DNA of 64,000 bases from Neoroseomonas marina (lineage in GTDB: Bacteria > Pseudomonadota > Alphaproteobacteria > Acetobacterales > Acetobacteraceae), in contig NZ_JABBKX010000001.1 in the NCBI RefSeq assembly GCF_012927745.1, positions 868,001 through 932,000 on the forward strand, in the 5' to 3' direction. Of the stretch, positions 41,870 to 53,679 are shown piece by piece (positions within the stretch are counted from its first letter, which is position 1; each line of letters opens with the position of its first letter). Position numbers and translations under genes: made by a program. The notes under the pieces were generated by a model. The model saw only the letters and a list, made by a program, of their open reading frames with translations. It was not told the origin of the DNA and made no database searches.

Positions 41870-43444
41870 ATGAACGCTCCCCTGCCTGCCATCGCCCGCA
41901 CCCGCCCGCGCGTCGCCATCGTCGGCGCCGGACCCGGCGGCCTCGCCGCCGCCATGCTCCTCGCCGCTGCCGGCGCGCGAGTCACGGTTTTCGAGCGCGA
42001 CGATGTGGTCGGCGGGCGCACGCGCACGGTCACCGCGCCGGGCGGCTACCGTTTCGACATCGGCCCGACCTTCTTCCTCTACCCGCGCATCCTGCGCGAG
42101 ATCTTCGCCAGCTGCGGCGCGGACCTCGACGCGGAGGTCGAGCTGATGCGCCTCGACCCGCAATACCGGCTGGTCTTCGAGGGCGCATCGCCGGTCAGCG
42201 TCGACGCGAGCCCCGACCTCGCGCGCATGGAAGCCGAGATCGCGAAGCTCAGCCCCGCCGATGCGCGCGGCCTGCGGAGCTTCATGGAGGACAACCGCAC
42301 CAAGCTCGAGGCCTTCCGCCCGGTGCTGGAACGCCCCTTCGGCGGCCTGTCGGACTATCTGGCGCCCGAGGTGGTGAACGGGCTGCGCTACCTGCGCCCC
42401 TGGGCGTCGCTCGATCAGGACCTGCGGCGGCACTTCGCCGATCCGCGTACGCGCCTCGCCTTCGGCTTCCAGTCGAAATACCTCGGGATGAGCCCCTTCC
42501 GCTGCCCGAGCATGTTCACGATCCTGTCCTTCCTCGAATACGAGCATGGGGTGTTCCATCCGCGCGGAGGCTGCGGTGCCGTGTCCGAAGCGATGGCGCG
42601 CGTCGCCGGGCGTCTCGGCGTCGAGTTCCGCTTCGGCGCCAAGGTCGATCGCCTCGCCTTCGAAGGCCGGCGCGCCGCGGGCGTCGAGGTCGGCGGTACG
42701 CGCCACGCCGCCGACGCCGTGGTGGTGAACGCCGACTTCGCCCACGCCATCCCCGGCCTGATGCCGGAGGAGCTCCGGCCGCAATGGCCCGACGCGAAGA
42801 TCGCGAAGGCGCGCTACTCCTGCTCGACCTTCATGCTCTACCTCGGCATCGAGGGGCGGCTGCCGAACCTTGCGCACCACACCGTGCTGCTGGCCGAGGA
42901 TTACGAGCGCAATTTGCGCCAGATCGAGAGCGGCGAGATCCCGGACAATCCCTCCGTCTACGTCCAGGCGGCAGCAGGCACCGACCCCTCCCTCGCGCCG
43001 GAGGGGCATTCGACGCTGTATGTCCTCGTGCCCGTGCCCAACCTGCGCGAGGGCGGGGACTGGGCGGCGGAGGCGCAGCGCTACCGTCGCGTGGCGCTCG
43101 ACCGGCTGAAGGCCCTCGGCCTCGGCGACATCGAGCCGCGCATCCGCTACGAGCGGATGCTGACGCCGCAGGACTGGCGGAACGAATACGCGGTCGGCTA
43201 TGGGGCGACCTTCAACCTGGCGCATGACGTGCGCCAGATGCTGCATTTCCGCCCGCGCAACCGCTTCGGCAAGGCGCAGGGCGTCTATCTGGTCGGCGGC
43301 GGCACCCATCCGGGCAGCGGCCTGCCGGTCATCTACGAAGGCGCGCGCATCAGCACGCGGCTGCTGATGGCCGATCTGGGCCTGCAGCAGGGCGTGACGG
43401 CGGGCGGCGGGCATGGCGCGGCGCACTCCGCGCTGGGCGGCTGA
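41870..43444 (+). CDS. CrtN/CrtP-type carotenoid desaturase or oxidase (first copy)
   Basis: This 524-residue flavoprotein is of the CrtI/CrtN phytoene-desaturase family. The FAD motif GAGPGG is at residues 19-24, the DIGPTFFLYP region follows, and the C-terminus has the diagnostic GVYLVGGGTHPGSGLPV box. As first gene of a cluster with HpnC-HpnD and HpnE, it should act on a C30 chain (squalene or dehydrosqualene), adding double bonds or oxidising a terminal methyl. Which of the two copies is the desaturase cannot be told from motifs alone. It is followed 17 bases later by its paralogue. Confidence 0.9.
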   Translation: MNAPLPAIARTRPRVAIVGAGPGGLAAAMLLAAAGARVTVFERDDVVGGRTRTVTAPGGYRFDIGPTFFLYPRILREIFASCGADLDAEVELMRLDPQYRLVFEGASPVSVDASPDLARMEAEIAKLSPADARGLRSFMEDNRTKLEAFRPVLERPFGGLSDYLAPEVVNGLRYLRPWASLDQDLRRHFADPRTRLAFGFQSKYLGMSPFRCPSMFTILSFLEYEHGVFHPRGGCGAVSEAMARVAGRLGVEFRFGAKVDRLAFEGRRAAGVEVGGTRHAADAVVVNADFAHAIPGLMPEELRPQWPDAKIAKARYSCSTFMLYLGIEGRLPNLAHHTVLLAEDYERNLRQIESGEIPDNPSVYVQAAAGTDPSLAPEGHSTLYVLVPVPNLREGGDWAAEAQRYRRVALDRLKALGLGDIEPRIRYERMLTPQDWRNEYAVGYGATFNLAHDVRQMLHFRPRNRFGKAQGVYLVGGGTHPGSGLPVIYEGARISTRLLMADLGLQQGVTAGGGHGAAHSALGG

Positions 43445-43461: not shown

Positions 43462-45042
43462 ATGAGCGCGAAGGTCGTCGTCATCGGCAGCGGTCTGGGC
43501 GGACTTGCCGCCGCCGCCGTCGCGCAGGCGCGCGGGCACCAGGTCACGCTGCTCGAGCGCAACCCCTGGCTGGGCGGCAAGGCCGCGGTGCTCCACCTCG
43601 ACAATCCGACGGGCCCGGGGCGGTTCCGCTTCGATATGGGCCCGACCATCCTGACCGTGCCGCGCGTGCTCCGCCGCATCTACGCCGAGGCGAACCGCGT
43701 GCAGCAAGACGAGCTGCCGCTGATCCGCCTCGACCCGCAGTGGCGCTGCTTCTTCGACGACAACACGCGCATCGACCTGATGGCCGATGTGGACACCATG
43801 GCGAAGTCCATGGACGCCTTCGCGCCGGGCAAGGGAAACGGGCCGGGCTACCGCAAGTTCCAGGAAGTCTCACGCCATCTGCACGAGATCAGCGAGAAGT
43901 TCTTCTTCTGGAAGCCGGTGGAGGGCATCGGCGACACGCTGAACTTCGCCAGCAACTTCAAGCCGGAGGTCCTGCGCGATGTCCTCGCGCTGCGCATGGG
44001 CAAGACCGTCGCGAAGGTGATCCGCGGCCACGTGCCGGACGAACGCCTGGCGCAGATGCTCGACCACTTCACCCAGTATGTCGGCTCGAACCCCTACCTC
44101 GCCCCTGCGGTGCTCTGCGGGATCGGCGACATGCAGGCGAGCGAGGGCGTCTGGTATCCCGTCGGCGGCACCCGCGCCGTGGCGGAAGGACTGGCGAAGC
44201 TCGCCCGCGACCTCGGCGCCGACCTGCGCACCGATGCCGAGGTGACGGATATCGAGATCGTCAACGGCGCCGTGCGCAGCGTGACCGCGAACGGGGAACG
44301 CATCCCCTGCGACGCGCTGATCTCCAACATGGACGCGATCCGCACCTATACGGAGCTCGTGAAGGGACCGCCGGCCAAGACCATGCAGAAGCGCGGCTAC
44401 CAGCCGGCCTGCTCGGGGGTGGTGCTCTATCTCGGCCTGAAGAAGAAGTACGACCACCTCGCGCATCACTGCTTCGTCTTCTCCCGCGATGCGGAGGAGG
44501 AGTTCGACAGCATCTACCGCAAGGGCGAGCCCGCGCCGGATCCGACCGCCTATCTCTGCGCGCCCTCCGTGTCGGACGACACGGTCGCACCCGAGGGCGG
44601 CGAGGCGCTCTACATCCTGGTCCACACCCCGCACCTGCGCCACGGCCATGACTGGTCGAAGATGTTCGCGCCCTACCGGCAGCAGATCCTCGATAAGCTG
44701 AAGCGCACCGCTGGGATGGAGGACATCGAGGAGCGCATCGTCGTCGAACGTGCGCTGACGCCGGTCGACATCCACGAGCGCTACAAGGTGCTGGACGGGG
44801 CGATCTACGGCCTCGCCTCGCACGGCGCCTTCCTCGGCGCCTTCAAGCCGTCGAACCGGTCGAAGGCGATCAAGGGGCTCTACCTCGCGGGCGGCGCGGC
44901 GCATCCGGGGCCGGGCATGCCGATGGTGATGATGTCGGGCTGGATCGCGGCCGATGCGCTCGACCGCGACCTTGGCGGGCGCGGCATGTCGGCGGCGGCG
45001 GAGCGCGCCGGGCTGCGGGACGCGCTGCTCGCAGCGGAATGA
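43462..45042 (+). CDS. CrtN/CrtP-type carotenoid desaturase or oxidase (second copy)
   Basis: This 526-residue paralogue of the previous gene has the FAD motif GSGLGG at residues 9-14, FDMGPTILTVPRVL and the C-terminal GLYLAGGAAHPGPGMPM box. AGGAGG lies before its ATG. Two such enzymes together are the normal set for C30 acids: one desaturates to diapolycopene-like products, the other (CrtP/CrtNb type) oxidises the end methyl to an aldehyde. It overlaps the acyltransferase gene by four bases. Confidence 0.9.
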   Translation: MSAKVVVIGSGLGGLAAAAVAQARGHQVTLLERNPWLGGKAAVLHLDNPTGPGRFRFDMGPTILTVPRVLRRIYAEANRVQQDELPLIRLDPQWRCFFDDNTRIDLMADVDTMAKSMDAFAPGKGNGPGYRKFQEVSRHLHEISEKFFFWKPVEGIGDTLNFASNFKPEVLRDVLALRMGKTVAKVIRGHVPDERLAQMLDHFTQYVGSNPYLAPAVLCGIGDMQASEGVWYPVGGTRAVAEGLAKLARDLGADLRTDAEVTDIEIVNGAVRSVTANGERIPCDALISNMDAIRTYTELVKGPPAKTMQKRGYQPACSGVVLYLGLKKKYDHLAHHCFVFSRDAEEEFDSIYRKGEPAPDPTAYLCAPSVSDDTVAPEGGEALYILVHTPHLRHGHDWSKMFAPYRQQILDKLKRTAGMEDIEERIVVERALTPVDIHERYKVLDGAIYGLASHGAFLGAFKPSNRSKAIKGLYLAGGAAHPGPGMPMVMMSGWIAADALDRDLGGRGMSAAAERAGLRDALLAAE

Positions 45043-45854
45043 CCGGCGCGGACCGACCACAGCCCGATCCGGTGCCGCTCCGTTCGGAGCGGTACATCGC
45101 CTTCTTCGACCTCGCCTTCACGCGATTCTTCCGCCGCCACATGCGCGCGGCGCGCGTCGCGCGCTGGGGCCTGCCGCAGATCCCCGCCGGCGCCCCGGCG
45201 GTGATCTTCGTGAACCACCCCTCCTGGTGGGATGGCGTGGCGGTGATGCTGCTCGGGCGGCGACTGTTGCGTGAACGGCGCGTATTCACCCCCATGGCCG
45301 CCTGGGCGCTGGAGAAGTACGGCTTCATGCGCCGGATCGGCGTCTTCGGGGTCGAGACCGGCACCACGCGCGGCACCGTCGCCTTCCTGCGCACGGCGGA
45401 GCGCGTGCTGCAGGACCCGCGCCATGCGCTGTGGGTCCATGCGCCGGGGCGGTTCTGCGATCCGCGCGAACGGCCCATTCCGATCGCGCCGGGACTGACG
45501 CGGCTGCCGGAACTGGCCCCGGCGGCCTGGTTCGTCCCCCTCGCGCTCGACTACCCCTTCTGGTCGGAACGCAAGGCGGAGATGCTCGTCGCCTTCGGCC
45601 CGCCGATGCCGGCGTCGGGCTTGCTGGCGATGGACCGCGAGGCGCGCGCGGCGCGCCTTGCCGACGCGCTGGAGGCGGTCGCCGACCGGCTGACGGAGGA
45701 CGCGATCGCCCGCGATCCGGACCGCTTCGAGACCCTGGTGCAGGGCAAGGAAGGCATGGGCGGTATCTACCAGGGGTGGCGGCGGCTCGGCGCGCTGCTG
45801 CGCGGGCAACGCTTCGACCCGCGCCACGACCACCAGCCGGATCGCCCCGCATGA
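45039..45854 (+). CDS. PlsC-type acyltransferase, likely carotenoid-glycoside acyltransferase
   Basis: This 271-residue protein is in the lysophosphatidate-acyltransferase superfamily. The catalytic HX4D motif is NHPSWWD (His60, Asp65), and a substrate-binding VFGVETGTTRGT-like block follows. It lacks an obvious membrane anchor. Its place between a desaturase and a glycosyltransferase mirrors the acyltransferase step (CrtO in staphyloxanthin synthesis), so acylation of a sugar on the carotenoid is the likely role; a phospholipid role is the alternative. It overlaps both neighbours by four bases. Confidence 0.82.
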   Translation: MTGADRPQPDPVPLRSERYIAFFDLAFTRFFRRHMRAARVARWGLPQIPAGAPAVIFVNHPSWWDGVAVMLLGRRLLRERRVFTPMAAWALEKYGFMRRIGVFGVETGTTRGTVAFLRTAERVLQDPRHALWVHAPGRFCDPRERPIPIAPGLTRLPELAPAAWFVPLALDYPFWSERKAEMLVAFGPPMPASGLLAMDREARAARLADALEAVADRLTEDAIARDPDRFETLVQGKEGMGGIYQGWRRLGALLRGQRFDPRHDHQPDRPA

Positions 45855-46954
45855 CCTGGGATCCGACGACCATCGCCCTGGCGCTTGCCGCCCTTCCGGC
45901 GCTGAACGGGCTCGTGAACCTGTTTCTGTTGCGCGCGCCGGACGGCCCGGCGCCGGCGGGCACGCTCGTCTCCATCCTGATCCCGGCGCGCGACGAGGCC
46001 GCGAATATCGGCGCCTGCCTCGAGGCCGCCCTCGCCCAGCAGGGTGTCGACATCGAGGTCGTCGTCATGGACGACGGTTCGACCGATGGCACGCCCGATA
46101 TCGTCGGTGCCATCGCCGCGCGCGACCCGCGGGTGCGCCTGATCGCGGCGCCGCCGCTGCCCGAGGGTTGGTCCGGGAAGATGCACGCCTGCGCGCAGCT
46201 CGGCGCGGCGGCGTGCGGGACGCACCTGCTCTTCATCGATGCCGATGTGCGCCTCGCCCCCGGCGCGGCGGCGGGGCTCGCGGGCCATGCGGTCGGCCAC
46301 GGCCTCGGCCTGGTCAGCGCCGTGCCGCGCCAGCGCATCGAGACGATCGGCGAGGGCCTCACCGTCCCCATCATCAACCTGCTGCTGCTCGGCTATCTGC
46401 CGGGCGGCGGGCGCGCCTTCACGCGCCTGCCCGGCTTCGCCGCCGGCTGCGGGCAGATGATGATGGTCGCGCGCGACGCCTATGCCGCGACGGGCGGGCA
46501 TGGCGCCGTGCGCACCACGCTGCATGACGGGCTGAAGCTCACGCGCCTGCTGCGCACGCGCGGCTGGCGCACCGAGATGGTCGCCGGCGCCGACCTCGCC
46601 GCCTGCCGGATGTATCGCGGCTTCGGGGAATCCTGGCGCGGCTTCCTCAAGAACGCGCGCGAAGGCATGGCGACGCCGCTCGGCCTGCCGGTATGGACGG
46701 TGGTGCTGGCGGGCGCGCATCTCTGGCCCTTCGCGCTGCTGCCGGCGGGCGCGGCCTGGCTGGCGCTCGCCCTGGTCTTCGCGCTGCGCGCGGCGGTGAC
46801 GCTGCGCAGCGGGGAACCCGCCTGGACCATCGTCCTGCATCCCGCCGCCGTGGTGGTGGCGCTCGCGATCCAGTGGACCGCGCTGGCGCGCGTGCTGACG
46901 GGGCGCAAGGAAGGCTGGAAGGGGCGCAGCTACGCGGCGCCGGAACCTTCGTGA
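45851..46954 (+). CDS. GT2-family glycosyltransferase, likely CrtQ-type
   Basis: This 367-residue protein has an N-terminal helix, a GT-A domain with DDGSTDGT (Asp74, Asp75) and the metal-binding D-A-D at 130-132, and three or four membrane helices at the C-terminus. This layout is that of CrtQ-type 4,4'-diaponeurosporenoate glycosyltransferases and of hopanoid/HpnB-like enzymes. The start at 45851 overlaps the previous stop (ATGA). In this operon it most likely glycosylates a carotenoic acid. HpnB-like activity on hopanoids is the alternative, given the Hpn genes next door. Confidence 0.82.
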   Translation: MTWDPTTIALALAALPALNGLVNLFLLRAPDGPAPAGTLVSILIPARDEAANIGACLEAALAQQGVDIEVVVMDDGSTDGTPDIVGAIAARDPRVRLIAAPPLPEGWSGKMHACAQLGAAACGTHLLFIDADVRLAPGAAAGLAGHAVGHGLGLVSAVPRQRIETIGEGLTVPIINLLLLGYLPGGGRAFTRLPGFAAGCGQMMMVARDAYAATGGHGAVRTTLHDGLKLTRLLRTRGWRTEMVAGADLAACRMYRGFGESWRGFLKNAREGMATPLGLPVWTVVLAGAHLWPFALLPAGAAWLALALVFALRAAVTLRSGEPAWTIVLHPAAVVVALAIQWTALARVLTGRKEGWKGRSYAAPEPS

Positions 46955-48588
46955 CCGTCGCCGCCGGGCCGCCCAGCCGCGACGCGGGCAGCGAGAACTT
47001 TCCCGTCGCCTCGCTGCTGCTGGCCCGCGCGCTGCGCCCGAAGGTGCTCGGCTTCTACCGCTTCGTGCGCACCGCCGACGACATCGCCGACAGCGCCGCG
47101 CTTTCGCCGGAAGAGAAGCTGGCACGCCTCGACGCGCTGGAACGCGCCATCGACGATGCCGCCACCGACGAGCCCGCCGCGCGGCCGCTGCACGACAGCG
47201 GCGCGGGCACGACGGAGGCGCGGCGGATGCTCGCCGCCTTCCGCCAGGATGCGACGCAGCTTCGCTATGCCGATTGGGCAGCGCTCGAAGCCTATTGCGC
47301 GTCCTCGGCCGTGCCGGTGGGTCGGATGCTGCTGCGCCTGCATGGCGAGGAGGATCCGCAGGCGATCGCGGCCTCCGATGCGCTCTGCACCGCCCTGCAG
47401 ATCCTGAACCACCTGCAGGACCTGGTGCCGGACCGCGACGGAATCGGCCGCATCTACCTGCCCGAATCCTGGATGGCGCTGGCCGGGGGCGAGGCCGCCT
47501 TCTTCGATCCCGCCAATGCCGTGCCGCGCCGCGCGGTGCTGGACGCCGCGCTCGACCGCATCGAGGAACGGCTGGAGGCCGCGGCCGCGCTGCCGCGCCG
47601 GATCGCGTCGCGGCGGCTCGCGATGGAGGCGACGGTGACGCTCGCCCTCGCGCGGCGGCTGCTGGCGCGGCTGCGCGCGGGCGATCCCGTCACGGGCCGC
47701 GTCGCGCTGACGAAGGCCGACTTCGCACGCGCCTTCGCCGCGGCCCCCTTCCGCGGCCCCTCCGACGCGGCGCTGGTGCGGGCGCGGGTGAACGCGGCGG
47801 GATCCTCCTTCTCGCGCGGCATGTCGGCACTGCGCGGGGAACGCCGCCGCGCCCTCTGGGCCGTCTATGCCTTCTGCCGCGCGGTCGACGACATCGCCGA
47901 TGGCGCGCTGCCGGAAGCGGAGAAGCACCGCTTCCTCGCCGAATGGCGCGCCAGGCTCGACCGCCCAGACTGCGCCCTGTCGCGCGAACTCGCGCACGCG
48001 CGCGCCGGCTTCGCCCTGCCCATCGAAGAATGCGCGGCGATGATCGCGGGCATGGAAACCGACGCCGCGCCATCCGTGCGCATCGCCGATCGCGCCGCGC
48101 TCGATCTCTATTGCCGCCGCGTCGCGGGCAGCGTCGGGGCCATGTCCGTGCGCATCTTCGGCGCGCCGGAAGCCGCAGCGTTCGGCCTCGCCCTCGGCCG
48201 CACGCTGCAACTGGTGAACATCCTGCGCGACATGGACGAGGACGCGACGCGCGACCGCGTCTACCTGCCGCTCGACCTGCTTGCCGCCCATGGCGTCGAG
48301 GACGGGCCGGCGGCACGGATGCTCGCCGCGCCCGGCACAGCGGAGGCCGCACGCACGCTCGCCGCCGAGGCCGAGGCCGGCTTCGCCCGCGCCGAGCGCG
48401 AGCTTCGCGACTTCGACGCCGCCGCACTGCTGCCGGCGCGGATCATGATGTGGGGCTACCGGCGCCTGCTCGACCGGCTGCTGACGCGGGGCTTCGGCCC
48501 GCCGCGCACGCGCCCGCGCCTGACGGCGTCCGAGAAGGCGCGCATGGCCGCCTTCGCCCTGCGGCTCGCCCCCGTCGGGGCGCGATGA
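46951..48588 (+). CDS. HpnC-HpnD fusion: two-domain squalene-synthesis enzyme
   Basis: This 545-residue protein is two trans-isoprenyl-diphosphate synthases in one chain. Residues 1-265 are HpnC-like, with TADDIADS (Asp43 to Asp47) and ILNHLQDLVPDRD (Asp157, Asp161). Residues 270-545 are HpnD-like, with FCRAVDDIADG (Asp313 to Asp317) and NILRDMDED (Asp427, Asp431). All four aspartate motifs are intact. HpnD makes presqualene diphosphate from two farnesyl diphosphates and HpnC turns it into hydroxysqualene; HpnE, the next gene, reduces that to squalene. They are usually separate genes. A GTG at 46951 overlaps the previous stop (GTGA). Confidence 0.9.
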   Translation: MTVAAGPPSRDAGSENFPVASLLLARALRPKVLGFYRFVRTADDIADSAALSPEEKLARLDALERAIDDAATDEPAARPLHDSGAGTTEARRMLAAFRQDATQLRYADWAALEAYCASSAVPVGRMLLRLHGEEDPQAIAASDALCTALQILNHLQDLVPDRDGIGRIYLPESWMALAGGEAAFFDPANAVPRRAVLDAALDRIEERLEAAAALPRRIASRRLAMEATVTLALARRLLARLRAGDPVTGRVALTKADFARAFAAAPFRGPSDAALVRARVNAAGSSFSRGMSALRGERRRALWAVYAFCRAVDDIADGALPEAEKHRFLAEWRARLDRPDCALSRELAHARAGFALPIEECAAMIAGMETDAAPSVRIADRAALDLYCRRVAGSVGAMSVRIFGAPEAAAFGLALGRTLQLVNILRDMDEDATRDRVYLPLDLLAAHGVEDGPAARMLAAPGTAEAARTLAAEAEAGFARAERELRDFDAAALLPARIMMWGYRRLLDRLLTRGFGPPRTRPRLTASEKARMAAFALRLAPVGAR

Positions 48589-49820
48589 GCCGCGCCGTCC
48601 ACGTCGTCGGCGCCGGCGTCGCCGGGCTGGTGGCGGCACTTGCCCTCGCACGTGCCGGCCGGGCGGTGACGCTGCACGAAGCCGCGCCCGTCGCCGGCGG
48701 CCGTTGCCGCGCCCTGCCGGACGGCACCGACAACGGCACCCATGCGCTGATGGGCGCGAACCGCGCCGCGCTGCGCTTCCTCGCCGACATCGGCGCGGCG
48801 GAGGGCTGGATCGAACCCGAACCGGCGGGACTGCCGGTCCTCGACCTCGCGGACGGCGCGGCGCGGCGGATCGCGGCGTCGCCGCTGGCCTGGCGCGATC
48901 CCGCGCTGCGCCCGCCGGGACTGACGGCCGCCGGGTTTCTCGCGTTGCTCGGCATGGCGCTGCCCTTCACGGACAAGCCGGTCGCGGAGGTGCTCGCGAA
49001 GCATCCCGCCCTGCTGCGCGGCTTCGTGGAACCGCTGACCGTCGCGGCGCTGAACACGCCGGTCGCCGAGGCCTCCTCCGCCCGCCTGGGCCAGGTGCTG
49101 CGCCGCCTCGGCGGCGCGGGTGCGGCACGGCTGCTGGTGGCGCGGGAGGGACTCGGCCCGAACCTGGTCACGCCCGCGCTTGCCGCGCTGCAGGCCGCCG
49201 GGGTCGCGATCCGCTTCGGCAGCCGGCTGCGCGCCATGACCCAGGCCGATGGCCGCATCGCCGCGCTGCATCTCGGCGAGGACTCCCTCGCCGTCACGGA
49301 AGGCGACGCGGTCCTCCTCGCACTGCCGCCCTGGGAGGCGGCGCGGCTCATCACCGGCCTGAAGGTGCCGGAGCGCCACGCGCCGATCCTCAACCTGCAT
49401 TTCGCGATCGACGGCGTCGGCCCGGTGCGTTTCCTCGGCCTCGTCGGAGGGCTCGCGCAATGGGTGCTGGTGCGGCCCTCGGGCGTCTCGGTCACCGTCA
49501 GCGCCGCGGATGACGAGAGCGAGGAACCGGTGGACACCCTGGCCCCGCGCGCCTGGGCCGAGATCCGCCGCGCCGCCGCCGCCTTCGCCCTGCCTGGTGC
49601 TTGGCCCGAGGCGCCGCCGCCCTGCCACGCGGTCAAGGAACGCCGCGCCACGCCGCGCCATGCAGTCGGCTTCCCGCCACTGGCGCCCCGCCGGCCGATG
49701 CGCAACCTGGCGCTGGCCGGCGACTGGACCTGGCCCGGCCTGCCCGCGACCATCGAAGCCGCCGCCCTGTCCGGCGAGGCCGCCACCAAGGTGCTGCTGC
49801 GCCTGGGGCCCACCGCATGA
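48585..49820 (+). CDS. hpnE: HpnE: hydroxysqualene dehydroxylase
   Basis: This 411-residue amine-oxidase-fold flavoprotein reduces hydroxysqualene to squalene. It has the FAD motif GAGVAG at residues 9-14, GGRCRALPDGTDNGTHALMG, the region NTPVAEASSARLGQVLRR and the C-terminal AGDWTWPGLPATIEAA box that marks HpnE. Its ATG overlaps the fusion gene's stop. The squalene-hopene cyclase gene is not in this window, which fits use of squalene for C30 carotenoids here. Confidence 0.92.
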   Translation: MSRAVHVVGAGVAGLVAALALARAGRAVTLHEAAPVAGGRCRALPDGTDNGTHALMGANRAALRFLADIGAAEGWIEPEPAGLPVLDLADGAARRIAASPLAWRDPALRPPGLTAAGFLALLGMALPFTDKPVAEVLAKHPALLRGFVEPLTVAALNTPVAEASSARLGQVLRRLGGAGAARLLVAREGLGPNLVTPALAALQAAGVAIRFGSRLRAMTQADGRIAALHLGEDSLAVTEGDAVLLALPPWEAARLITGLKVPERHAPILNLHFAIDGVGPVRFLGLVGGLAQWVLVRPSGVSVTVSAADDESEEPVDTLAPRAWAEIRRAAAAFALPGAWPEAPPPCHAVKERRATPRHAVGFPPLAPRRPMRNLALAGDWTWPGLPATIEAAALSGEAATKVLLRLGPTA

Positions 49821-51157
49821 CGCCCGCCGAGGCCCTCGCTGCCCTGCGCGCCGCCGAGGCCCGCGACGGCGCGCCGGACGCCGCGCGCCGGCGCGACCTG
49901 CTCGCGCGCCTCGCCGCCGAGGTGAAGCGGCGTGGGGAGGAGATCGCCGCCGCGGCCGATGCCGATTTCGGCGGCCGCGACCGGATCGAGACGCTGCTCG
50001 CCGACGTGCTGCTGGTCGCCGACATGGCGCTGTATGCGCGGCGGCGGCTGCGGCGCTGGATGCGGCCGCGGCGTGTCGGCGTGCCCTTCCCCTTCCTGCC
50101 TGCCCGCGCCTGGGTCGAGCCGATGCCCAAGGGCATCGTCGGCGTCATGGCGCCGTGGAACTACCCGGTGCAGCTCGCCCTGGCCCCCGTGGTCGACGCC
50201 ATCGCGGCCGGAAACCGCGTGGCGGTGAAGCCGTCGGAGCACACGCCCCGCTGCGCCGCCCTGATCGGGGAGGTGCTGGAGGCCGCCCTGGGTCCGGACA
50301 TGGCCCGCTGCGTTACCGGGGATGCCGCGGTCGCCGCCGATTTCGCCGCCCAGCCCTGGGACCACCTGGTCTTCACCGGCGGCACCGCGACCGGCCGGCG
50401 GGTCGCGCAGGCGGCGGCGGCGAACCTGGTGCCGGTCACGCTGGAGCTGGGTGGGAAGTGCCCCGCCGTCGTGCTGCCGGGGGCCGACCTCGTCGTCGCG
50501 GCGCGCGACCTGCTCGCGGGCAAGGCGCTGAATGCCGGGCAGACCTGCGTGGCACCCGACACCGTCCTGCTCGTCGGCCATGCGCCCGAGGCCTTCGCGG
50601 CCGCCTGCCGTGCGGCCGGCATCGCCGTCCCGGCCACTGCCGTGCTGAACGCGACCCAGGCGACGCGGCTCGAACGCCTCGCAGGGGATGCGACGCTGAC
50701 GGCCCTCGGCCCGCCCGGCGAGGGCCTACGCCGCCCCCTGACGCTGGCGGAAGCGGCGGACGATGCCCCGTTGCTGCAGGACGAAGTCTTCGGCCCCGTC
50801 CTGCCCGTGCGGCCCTGTGCCGGGCTAGCCGACGCGATCGCCTGGATCGCGGCGCGTCCGGCGCCGCTCGTCATCTACATCTTCGGGGCGACGCCCGAGG
50901 AAGAAGGCGCCATCGCCGCCGGGACCCGCTCGGGCGCGCTGGTCAGCGAACGCTGCGTCGAGCATGTCGGATTCCCCGCCCTGCCCTTCGGCGGCATCGG
51001 CGCCTCCGGCCAGGGTCGGCTGCATGGGGAAGAAGGCTTCCGGAGCCTGTCCAACCTCCGCACCCGCGTCCGGCATCGGCGCTTCTCCCTGGCGCGACTG
51101 TTCGACCCGCCCCGCCGGCGTGCCGCTGAACTCGTGGCGAGGCTGTTATTGCGTTAA
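49817..51157 (+). CDS. Aldehyde dehydrogenase, likely diapocarotenal dehydrogenase
   Basis: This 446-residue enzyme has the NAD-linked aldehyde-dehydrogenase core: PWNYP with Asn115, KPSEHT with Lys138, catalytic Glu210 in LELGGK and Cys244 in GQTCVAPD. The form is short, like coniferyl-aldehyde and C30 carotenal dehydrogenases (AldH of staphyloxanthin synthesis, Ald of Methylomonas). It closes the operon, overlapping hpnE by four bases, so oxidation of a carotenal to a carotenoic acid is the likely job. Confidence 0.87.
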   Translation: MTPAEALAALRAAEARDGAPDAARRRDLLARLAAEVKRRGEEIAAAADADFGGRDRIETLLADVLLVADMALYARRRLRRWMRPRRVGVPFPFLPARAWVEPMPKGIVGVMAPWNYPVQLALAPVVDAIAAGNRVAVKPSEHTPRCAALIGEVLEAALGPDMARCVTGDAAVAADFAAQPWDHLVFTGGTATGRRVAQAAAANLVPVTLELGGKCPAVVLPGADLVVAARDLLAGKALNAGQTCVAPDTVLLVGHAPEAFAAACRAAGIAVPATAVLNATQATRLERLAGDATLTALGPPGEGLRRPLTLAEAADDAPLLQDEVFGPVLPVRPCAGLADAIAWIAARPAPLVIYIFGATPEEEGAIAAGTRSGALVSERCVEHVGFPALPFGGIGASGQGRLHGEEGFRSLSNLRTRVRHRRFSLARLFDPPRRRAAELVARLLLR

Positions 51158-53141: not shown

Positions 53142-53259
53142 TCCGGACCTCCGTGGACAGCCATGGCGGCTGCCTCAATTCCTGCCATGACATGGCCACA
53201 ACCGGCCGCGAGAGTATGAACAGATGTTCATGTCCTGCCTGAAGCAAAGGAGTGACGCC

Positions 53260-53679
53260 ATGCGACAGGGTGCGATCAGCGCGGTGCTGCTCGGCGTCGC
53301 GCATGTGACCTTCGCGGCCGGCCCGGCCGCTGCCGCGCCCGCCGCCGCGACCGCGGCGGTGCCGGCGGCGATTGCCGATGGCGGGACGGGCGTGACGCTC
53401 GCGCGCGCCGGTGCCAGCAGTTTCCTCGCCGCGCCGCAGACCGAGGCGGCCGACATCGTGCCGGTCGGCGAAGGCGGGCGGGGCCGTGGACGCCGCGGCT
53501 ACTACGCCTATCCGGGCTGGGGTCCGCCGCCGGGCTACTACTACGCGCCCCCGCCGCGGCCGCGGTACTACCGGCCGCCGCCGGTCTATTACGCGCCGCC
53601 GCCGCCCGTGTACTACGCGCCTCCGCCCCCGGCCTATTACGCGCCGGCGCCGGGCGTCAGCCTGAACTTCCGGTTCTAG
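53260..53679 (+). CDS. Secreted Tyr/Pro-rich low-complexity protein
   Basis: This 139-residue protein has a signal peptide (MRQGAISAVLLGVAHVTFAA) followed by an Ala-rich stretch, a Gly/Arg turn (GRGRGRRG at 73-80) and a tail of about 50 residues built of YYAPPPP-like units, ending VSLNFRF. AAAGGAG before the ATG supports this start. The function is unknown; such proteins occur as cell-surface or stress proteins in many Acetobacteraceae and rhizobia. The C-terminal aromatic residue may matter for outer-membrane location. Confidence 0.75.
   Translation: MRQGAISAVLLGVAHVTFAAGPAAAAPAAATAAVPAAIADGGTGVTLARAGASSFLAAPQTEAADIVPVGEGGRGRGRRGYYAYPGWGPPPGYYYAPPPRPRYYRPPPVYYAPPPPVYYAPPPPAYYAPAPGVSLNFRF

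Follow-up and report, generated by a model that had tools for sequence, protein, structure and literature searches.

The fused hpnCD gene

The DNA analysed here is a 64,000-nucleotide stretch of the genome of Neoroseomonas marina (Acetobacteraceae; RefSeq assembly GCF_012927745.1, contig NZ_JABBKX010000001.1, positions 868,001 to 932,000 of the forward strand), hereafter the window; all positions are those of the window. It carries a gene, hpnCD, that joins the squalene-pathway enzymes HpnC and HpnD in one chain and lies inside a C30-carotenoid cluster. The gene forms a single frame at 46951–48588 on the + strand, with a GTG start and a sole stop codon at its end, and translates into 545 residues. 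Its parts are as follows.

46951–48588, + strand: fused HpnC–HpnD protein, 545 residues, GTG start (translation, NCBIfam and Pfam profiles)
46981–47745, + strand: HpnC-type half, residues 11–265 (best stretch for TIGR03464)
47077–47091, + strand: first aspartate motif of the HpnC half, DDIAD, residues 43–47 (translation, alignment)
47419–47433, + strand: second aspartate motif of the HpnC half, DLVPD, residues 157–161, after NHLQ (translation, alignment)
47746–47787, + strand: 14 residues (266–279) separating the two profile matches (profile bounds, predicted structure)
47788–48552, + strand: HpnD-type half, residues 280–534 (best stretch for TIGR03465)
47887–47901, + strand: first aspartate motif of the HpnD half, DDIAD, residues 313–317 (translation, alignment)
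48229–48243, + strand: second aspartate motif of the HpnD half, DMDED, residues 427–431, after NILR (translation, alignment)

A preliminary description, made from the sequence alone, had presented the product as one 545-residue protein with HpnC first and HpnD second, an order that mirrors the gene order of hpnCDE clusters; the translation and the NCBIfam matches agree with it on both counts. The whole chain scored 340.9 bits against the HpnC profile and 319.5 bits against the HpnD profile; both values lie above the curated cut-offs, but solely through the contribution of the opposite half to each score. Scored singly, the HpnC half (residues 1–268) favoured its own profile by far (233.7 versus 99.6 bits for HpnD), as did the HpnD half (residues 269–545; 232.5 versus 118.8 bits for HpnC). 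The Pfam family SQS_PSY (PF00494, gathering cut-off 26) matched the chain over two stretches with 343.4 bits, the single domains giving 166.8 and 188.9 bits. The best score of a CrtB phytoene synthase model (NF045921, NF042419 or NF045686) was 93.8 bits for one half, short of the cut-off of 550.

Both halves keep both aspartate motifs, as had been proposed. In an alignment of 136 fused rows, which represent 105 distinct sequences including that of the window, the motif aspartates of D43–D47, D157–D161, D313–D317 and D427–D431 never vary where the column is filled; one row is gapped at the first motif and two at the last. The HpnC-half residues D43, D44, D47, N153, H154, Q156, D157 and D161 are identical in 42/42 separate HpnC rows; among the fused rows Q156 is Q in 134/136 and R in two. 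In the HpnD half, D313, D314, D317, N423, R426, D427 and D431 are identical in 37/37 separate HpnD rows, except for D314 (34/37). HpnC precedes HpnD in all 136 fused rows, and the reverse order occurs in none.

The structure predicted by AlphaFold2 on 46 fused sequences is mainly helical, with a mean predicted local distance difference test score (pLDDT) of 93.4 and a predicted template-modelling score (pTM) of 0.90. Ten of the 14 residues between the domains (266–279) are predicted to be helical and not a floppy linker; with the single terminal stop, this fits the earlier remark that the frame has no stop or linker anomaly. Foldseek searches with the model returned single-domain CrtM, HpnC and squalene synthase chains, with CrtM-type chains on top, and the second half also matched the CrtM structure 8is6.

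Gene cluster around the fusion

The surrounding genes, which the preliminary description did not mention as a carotenoid cluster, follow the seven-gene order crtN-crtP-acyltransferase-glycosyltransferase family 2 (GT2)-hpnCD-hpnE-aldH. The names CrtN, CrtP, CrtO and CrtQ are used for window genes by likeness to those of Azospirillum brasilense Sp7.

41870–43444, + strand: CrtN-like desaturase, crtI family (NCBIfam crtI_fam, 514 bits; 61% identity to Sp7 crtN, AMK58_RS25220)
43462–45042, + strand: CrtP-like oxidase, crtI family (NCBIfam crtI_fam, 391 bits; 63% identity to Sp7 crtP, AMK58_RS25215)
45039–45854, + strand: CrtO-like acyltransferase (46% identity to the Sp7 acyltransferase, AMK58_RS25210; ATGA overlap with the preceding gene)
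45851–46954, + strand: CrtQ-like glycosyltransferase family 2 (PF00535; 50% identity to the Sp7 glycosyltransferase, AMK58_RS25205)
48585–49820, + strand: HpnE-like hydroxysqualene dehydroxylase (TIGR03467, 254.5 bits; 42% identity to a hopanoid-cluster HpnE)
49817–51157, + strand: aldH-like aldehyde dehydrogenase (PF00171; 35% identity to Sp7 aldH, AMK58_RS25225)

A crtNPOQ-type cassette is thus complete, with 61, 63, 46 and 50% identity to the four Sp7 genes. No Pfam family scored above its cut-off for the acyltransferase (PF01553, 20.8 against 23). The fused frame is bounded by coupled genes, as first described: it overlaps the upstream gene by GTGA (46951–46954) and the downstream gene by ATGA (48585–48588). 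Four-base overlaps also join crtP to the acyltransferase gene, the latter to the GT2 gene and hpnE to aldH, and 17 free bases lie between crtN and crtP.

Neighbourhoods were compared at 80 named loci, of which nine were too short upstream and five too short downstream for the HpnE count. All of crtN, crtP, acyltransferase and GT2 lie upstream in 64/71 loci with at least 5.5 kb there. HpnE lies downstream in 75/75 loci with at least 500 bases, and aldH in 51/62 with at least 3.5 kb.

The GT2 at 45851–46954 is a distant relative of HpnB (32% identity over 221 residues to a hopanoid-cluster HpnB), and from this similarity the gene pairs GT2-hpnCD and hpnB-hpnC perhaps share an origin. A DUF2141 gene recurs in or near the C30-carotenoid clusters of six loci (L147, L171, L241, L243, L114 and L178). 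One of them, on a predicted conjugative plasmid of Gluconobacter thailandicus (L243), reads crtN-crtP-acyltransferase-GT2-DUF2141-aldH, and no hpnCDE is annotated within the 15 kb stretch around its crt cassette; this mobile cassette may depend on host squalene. In a Siccirubricoccus locus (L086) the homologues of crtN, crtP and hpnE each match in two or three pieces, probably frameshifts, and the fusion is open. Further along the window, 53224–53679 encodes a small protein whose C-terminal half is repetitive and rich in Pro and Tyr and whose N-terminus, judged by eye, is signal-like.

Distribution of the fusion

The same two-domain architecture was looked for in Acetobacteraceae, as the preliminary description had proposed. 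Of 397 family genomes (own included), 89 in 19 genera contain the fusion as one full-length chain with an identity of at least 63%, so the statement that the two genes are nearly always separate was too strong. Three further genomes gave partial matches (G115, G305 and G120) and two carry fusions at lower identity (G001 and G116; 46 and 39%); 17 of the 397 are without any match to the fusion query. A stop falls within the matched stretch in six of the 89 rows; it was behind both domains, within the last five residues, in the two readable ones (L018 and L030) and likewise in L083. A squalene-hopene cyclase is present in 60 of the 89 fused genomes and absent from 29. In the Roseomonas group the fusion occurs widely.

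From 92 relatives found, 80 named loci were retained. Both halves lie in one open frame in all 80, two of them cut by a contig end; the stop or frameshift near residues 260–280 that was to be sought in a second assembly of the strain was not seen in this comparison, which covered relatives. Among named records Neoroseomonas oryzicola is nearest, with 96% identity, the window's own record having possibly been excluded from that search. A class-level search (385 genomes) added at least 14 further fused genomes in at least six other family codes, or at least 15 of at least seven codes if G596, which is cut by a contig end, is counted. Among the 14, the three of family code f33 are distant matches (39–40% identity). 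The architecture was checked for 14 of the 15; G653 is a search row only.

Tree and origin of the fusions

Quick trees were calculated from the HpnC and HpnD columns of 77 loci with hand-picked rows. The window and 24 fused Roseomonas-group loci were taken, the remaining ones being near copies, and four of 81 rows with HpnC were dropped as no HpnD was in view. Thirty-one rows, every one of them fused, make up a single group of carotenoid-type fusions with a support of 99 (Shimodaira–Hasegawa-like approximate likelihood-ratio test only). It comprises 25 Roseomonas-group rows including the window, Salinarimonas, a Microvirga plasmid and four rows of family code f15, in two of which a crtP-like gene adjoins the fusion. 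HpnC and HpnD from the family's hopanoid clusters fall elsewhere on the tree. As judged from these sequences, the carotenoid-type fusion is a lineage distinct from the family's hopanoid hpnC and hpnD. The other fusions sit among separate genes, including G001 and G116, which lie in hopanoid clusters with a cyclase.

Two constrained topologies were compared with the best tree, their groups having been named after the first tree was seen and five long-branch rows (three fused, two separate) being omitted. Joining of the family's own hopanoid hpnC and hpnD in place, for which 25 Roseomonas-type fusions were constrained with 17 hopanoid-cluster family rows (the Roseomonas marmotae row standing outside the group), was rejected at a cost of 170.5 log-likelihood units (p = 4.8e-124 in the approximately unbiased test, p-AU). 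A single origin of the sampled fusions was likewise rejected, uniting all 39 fused rows costing 309.6 log-likelihood units (p-AU 9.9e-50). The first tree requires eight changes between the fused and separate states, at least seven of them forced by well-supported branches; without the five long rows there are six changes, at least six forced. Each change may be a gain or a loss of the fusion.

One stop codon is all that separates hpnC from hpnD within a shared frame in Azospirillum (L148 and L242) and in L129, L130 and L131, which places a fusion one change away. The tree and the Microvirga plasmid, not the Roseomonas group itself, point to a possible sideways transfer of the fusion.

Hopanoid genes and the fusion in cyclase-bearing relatives

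The arrangement in family loci with separate genes was read from a sample of 16, three of them without a cyclase in view; these were picked by HpnC, so that the presence of hpnC is by choice and the order is not. In 13/13 loci with the cyclase in view, hpnC-hpnD-hpnE immediately precedes it. The cyclase region was then read in 18 of the 60 fused, cyclase-bearing genomes, part of which was also searched with hopanoid-type HpnC, HpnD and HpnE. The hopanoid cluster lacks hpnC in all 18. Fourteen regions read hpnA-hpnB-shc, without hpnC, hpnD or hpnE. The other four (G162, G202, G205 and G330) read hpnA-hpnB-hpnD-hpnE-shc with only hpnC gone; their hopanoid HpnD shares 72–77% identity with that of R. 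marmotae, scores 315–331 bits, above the cut-off, and was intact when read through in G202, G205 and G330. The absence of hpnC between hpnB and hpnD can be seen at L194 7576–9638, L198 3846–5875, L206 6990–9022 and L251 7534–9563.

In none of the 60 fused genomes with a cyclase did the searches reveal an HpnC besides the fusion. The fusion is the sole HpnC match at E 1e-40 in 50 of them; the second, weaker match in the other ten fits phytoene synthase best (NF045921, 363–410 bits against a cut-off of 500; HpnC 141–155 bits) and is therefore not taken for HpnC. The fusion is also the only HpnD above 200 bits in 56/60; in the HpnD search a second, weaker match (177–199 bits) occurred in 16 genomes, ten of which were scanned in the same way. 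Any hopanoids that these strains make should therefore owe their HpnC step to the fusion.

Muricoccus (Roseomonas) pecuniae DSM 25622 allows a comparison with chemical data. Its genome has a cyclase, an hpnA-hpnB-shc-hpnG cluster without hpnC-D-E, and three SQS_PSY matches: two are the fusion, and the third, a weak relative with 38 bits to HpnD and by eye no first-site aspartate motif, was set aside. Bacteriohopanepolyols are listed for DSM 25622 at 0.1 mg/g, as one compound (PMC12583986, Table 3). The identity of the sequenced and assayed strains rests on the DSM number. As M. pecuniae has hopanoids and the fusion is the only HpnC and HpnD found in it, the fusion is probably functional and probably works in vivo.

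The fusion appears to have replaced separate genes that once supplied hopanoid synthesis in this lineage. A broader account, towards which we incline by a small margin, is that a carotenoid-cluster fusion, possibly spread sideways between families (Microvirga plasmid), took over the squalene supply of the Roseomonas group; that the hopanoid hpnC already present was deleted, in most cases together with hpnD and hpnE; that hopanoid synthesis in many genera has come to rely on the carotenoid cluster; and that genera such as Neoroseomonas then dropped hopanoids. Under this account the four hpnA-hpnB-hpnD-hpnE-shc genomes would be half-way states.

Hopanoid and SQS_PSY genes of the host genus

No squalene-hopene cyclase was found by PF13243 in 35 genomes of the genus, or by TIGR01507 in the genome of N. 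marina itself; in the same family TIGR01507 finds a cyclase in 336/397 genomes. HpnH reaches its cut-off in 0/35 genus genomes; each of the 35, like each of 14 controls, has matches below it. A hopanoid role of the fusion in this genome was accordingly rejected, unless there is a cyclase that both profiles miss. Neoroseomonas is already listed among the genera without shc (PMC12583986), whereas hopanoid genes had earlier been ascribed to every Acetobacteraceae type strain (PMC8776678). Besides the fusion, the genome holds two SQS_PSY genes. The first resembles phytoene synthase (a 249-residue piece of it scores 337 bits with NF045921, below the cut-off of 500), and the second is weakly HpnD-like (85 bits).

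Proposed function and alternatives

We consider it very probable that the product is a two-domain squalene-precursor enzyme serving C30 carotenoid synthesis, the chemistry and the end product being inferred. The chemistry of HpnD, HpnC and HpnE in squalene synthesis was reportedly established by Pan and co-workers in 2015. The HpnD half would condense two molecules of farnesyl diphosphate to presqualene diphosphate, the HpnC half would convert this to hydroxysqualene, and the coupled HpnE would reduce hydroxysqualene to squalene; a synthesis of squalene by three enzymes is described in PMC12583986. CrtN and CrtP would then desaturate and oxidise squalene, the aldehyde dehydrogenase would make the acid, and the glycosyltransferase and acyltransferase would complete a glycosyl-acyl C30 carotenoid. 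Fusion would fix a 1:1 ratio and the nearness of the halves and may permit a hand-over of presqualene diphosphate. Such a hand-over, suggested in the preliminary description, is possible in view of the confident two-domain model (pTM 0.90); channelling of presqualene diphosphate by the chain would be a possible, bolder addition to the replacement of the hopanoid genes outlined above.

Several observations weigh against these proposals. The HpnC half stays below the TIGR03464 cut-off (233.7 against 250.45 bits), the HpnD half below that of TIGR03465 (232.5 against 278.6) and the cluster HpnE below that of TIGR03467 (254.5 against 283.05), so that all three are to be taken as divergent members. 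Seven of the 71 loci with enough upstream sequence (L040, L041, L069, L090, L107, L108 and L115) have none of the four crt-side genes, and two of 13 genomes of the genus within the family search gave no fusion match. Another possible source of the host's colour, besides this cluster, is its phytoene-synthase-like gene elsewhere. One relative (G346, locus L207) has a cyclase cluster and neither the fusion nor separate genes were found in it, which may reflect an assembly gap or an unseen route. In M. pecuniae simple C30 hopanoids were undetected and the bacteriohopanepolyol level was low (PMC12583986, Table 3). The literature examined yielded no enzyme assay of this fusion or of a near one.

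The sub-cut-off half scores, together with the CrtM-type chains that lead the Foldseek list and the match of the second half to 8is6, would also suit a CrtM- or CrtB-like synthase making dehydrosqualene or phytoene, with the other half as a structural or regulatory partner. We regard this as improbable: the CrtB models are far weaker (no more than 93.8 bits for either half, against a cut-off of 550), the motifs are kept in both halves, HpnE, which by inference is superfluous for a CrtM route, follows in all 75 loci with room for it, and no other HpnC was found in the 60 fused genomes with a cyclase. It is more improbable still that the fusion chiefly feeds hopanoid synthesis as ordinary hpnCDE clusters do. 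The order GT2-hpnC-hpnD-hpnE does resemble hpnB-C-D-E, and 60 of the 89 fused family genomes have a cyclase; against this stand the carotenoid genes that neighbour the fusion and the failure to find a cyclase in any of the 35 genomes of the window's genus, in agreement with PMC12583986. An assembly or sequencing artefact, a lost stop codon, hardly deserves credence. A single change could create such a frame from the Azospirillum arrangement, but the full-length match recurs in 89/397 family genomes and the frame is open in 80/80 named loci, two being cut by a contig end; this reading was rejected on the strength of relatives carrying the same open fusion.

A further view is compatible with the carotenoid role and on balance rather probable: that fusion serves solely to co-express the two activities in equal amounts, with no hand-over. 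The separate hpnC and hpnD of R. marmotae are already coupled by a four-base overlap, from which fusion is one step, and the fused and separate states switch several times on the tree. On the other side, the relative placement of the halves in the model is confident (pTM 0.90), beyond the need of a tether, although this is a prediction only.

Relation to known systems and implications

HpnCD fusions as such are known and have been in print since 2017 (PMC5462960). The protein of Acidobacteria subdivision 2 is, like that of the window, one chain with HpnC first, and fusions are also named there for Actinopolyspora, Blastococcus and Rhodospirillum centenum. The acidobacterial gene, compared by description and not by sequence, lies in a hopanoid cluster, whereas that of the window lies in a C30-carotenoid cluster of a genus that gave no cyclase match. 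Among the papers listed by literature searches, none reported this fusion in carotenoid clusters or in Roseomonas, as judged from titles, abstract openings and single passages; the same searches did not find the separate lineage of the fusion, or its status as the sole HpnC found in cyclase-bearing relatives, in print.

The closest functional parallels are A. brasilense Sp7 and Methylobacterium extorquens AM1, which have the same enzyme set, the crtP-acyltransferase-glycosyltransferase cassette and squalene as the carotenoid precursor (PMC13274349, PMC10448405). In Sp7, deletion of crtNPOQ abolishes the carotenoid and squalene accumulates, and deletion of hpnCDE leaves neither carotenoid nor squalene (PMC13274349). 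In AM1 a glycosyltransferase and an acyltransferase beside crtP finish a glycosylated, acylated C30 carotenoid (PMC10448405). In both organisms hpnC and hpnD are described as separate and away from the crt genes; in the window they are fused and inside the crt cluster.

Within the family, the hopanoid clusters of R. marmotae plasmid p1318-3 (L149) and of other Acetobacteraceae (hpnA-B-C-D-E-shc) show the same order of hpnC, hpnD and hpnE after a GT2 gene. They differ in that the genes are separate, belong to another tree branch and are followed by the squalene-hopene cyclase; HpnC, HpnD and HpnE of R. marmotae pass the NCBIfam cut-offs with 275.1, 317.9 and 395.0 bits. The R. marmotae genes hpnA to hpnH lie on a plasmid whose 430 kb record is marked as linear, with two IS701 transposase genes close by. 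The Microvirga ossetica plasmid (L147) shares the order crtN, crtP, acyltransferase, GT2, fused HpnCD, HpnE and the tree branch of the window. It differs in belonging to another bacterial order and in being a plasmid record; ispH follows its HpnE, and it has a methyltransferase between the crt genes and the aldehyde dehydrogenase on the other strand.

The routes to hopanoids, which are used as biomarkers, and to C30 carotenoids part at squalene. The fusion offers a compact object for testing a hand-over of presqualene diphosphate between active sites. If a fusion in a pigment cluster is the sole squalene source, surveys that seek hpnC and hpnD beside shc will score these genes as missing. In acidophilic Acetobacteraceae hopanoid genes are described as unclustered, typically with one or more missing (PMC8776678). 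If the fusion is indeed the sole source, the loss of hopanoids in a lineage would gain a simple genetic history.

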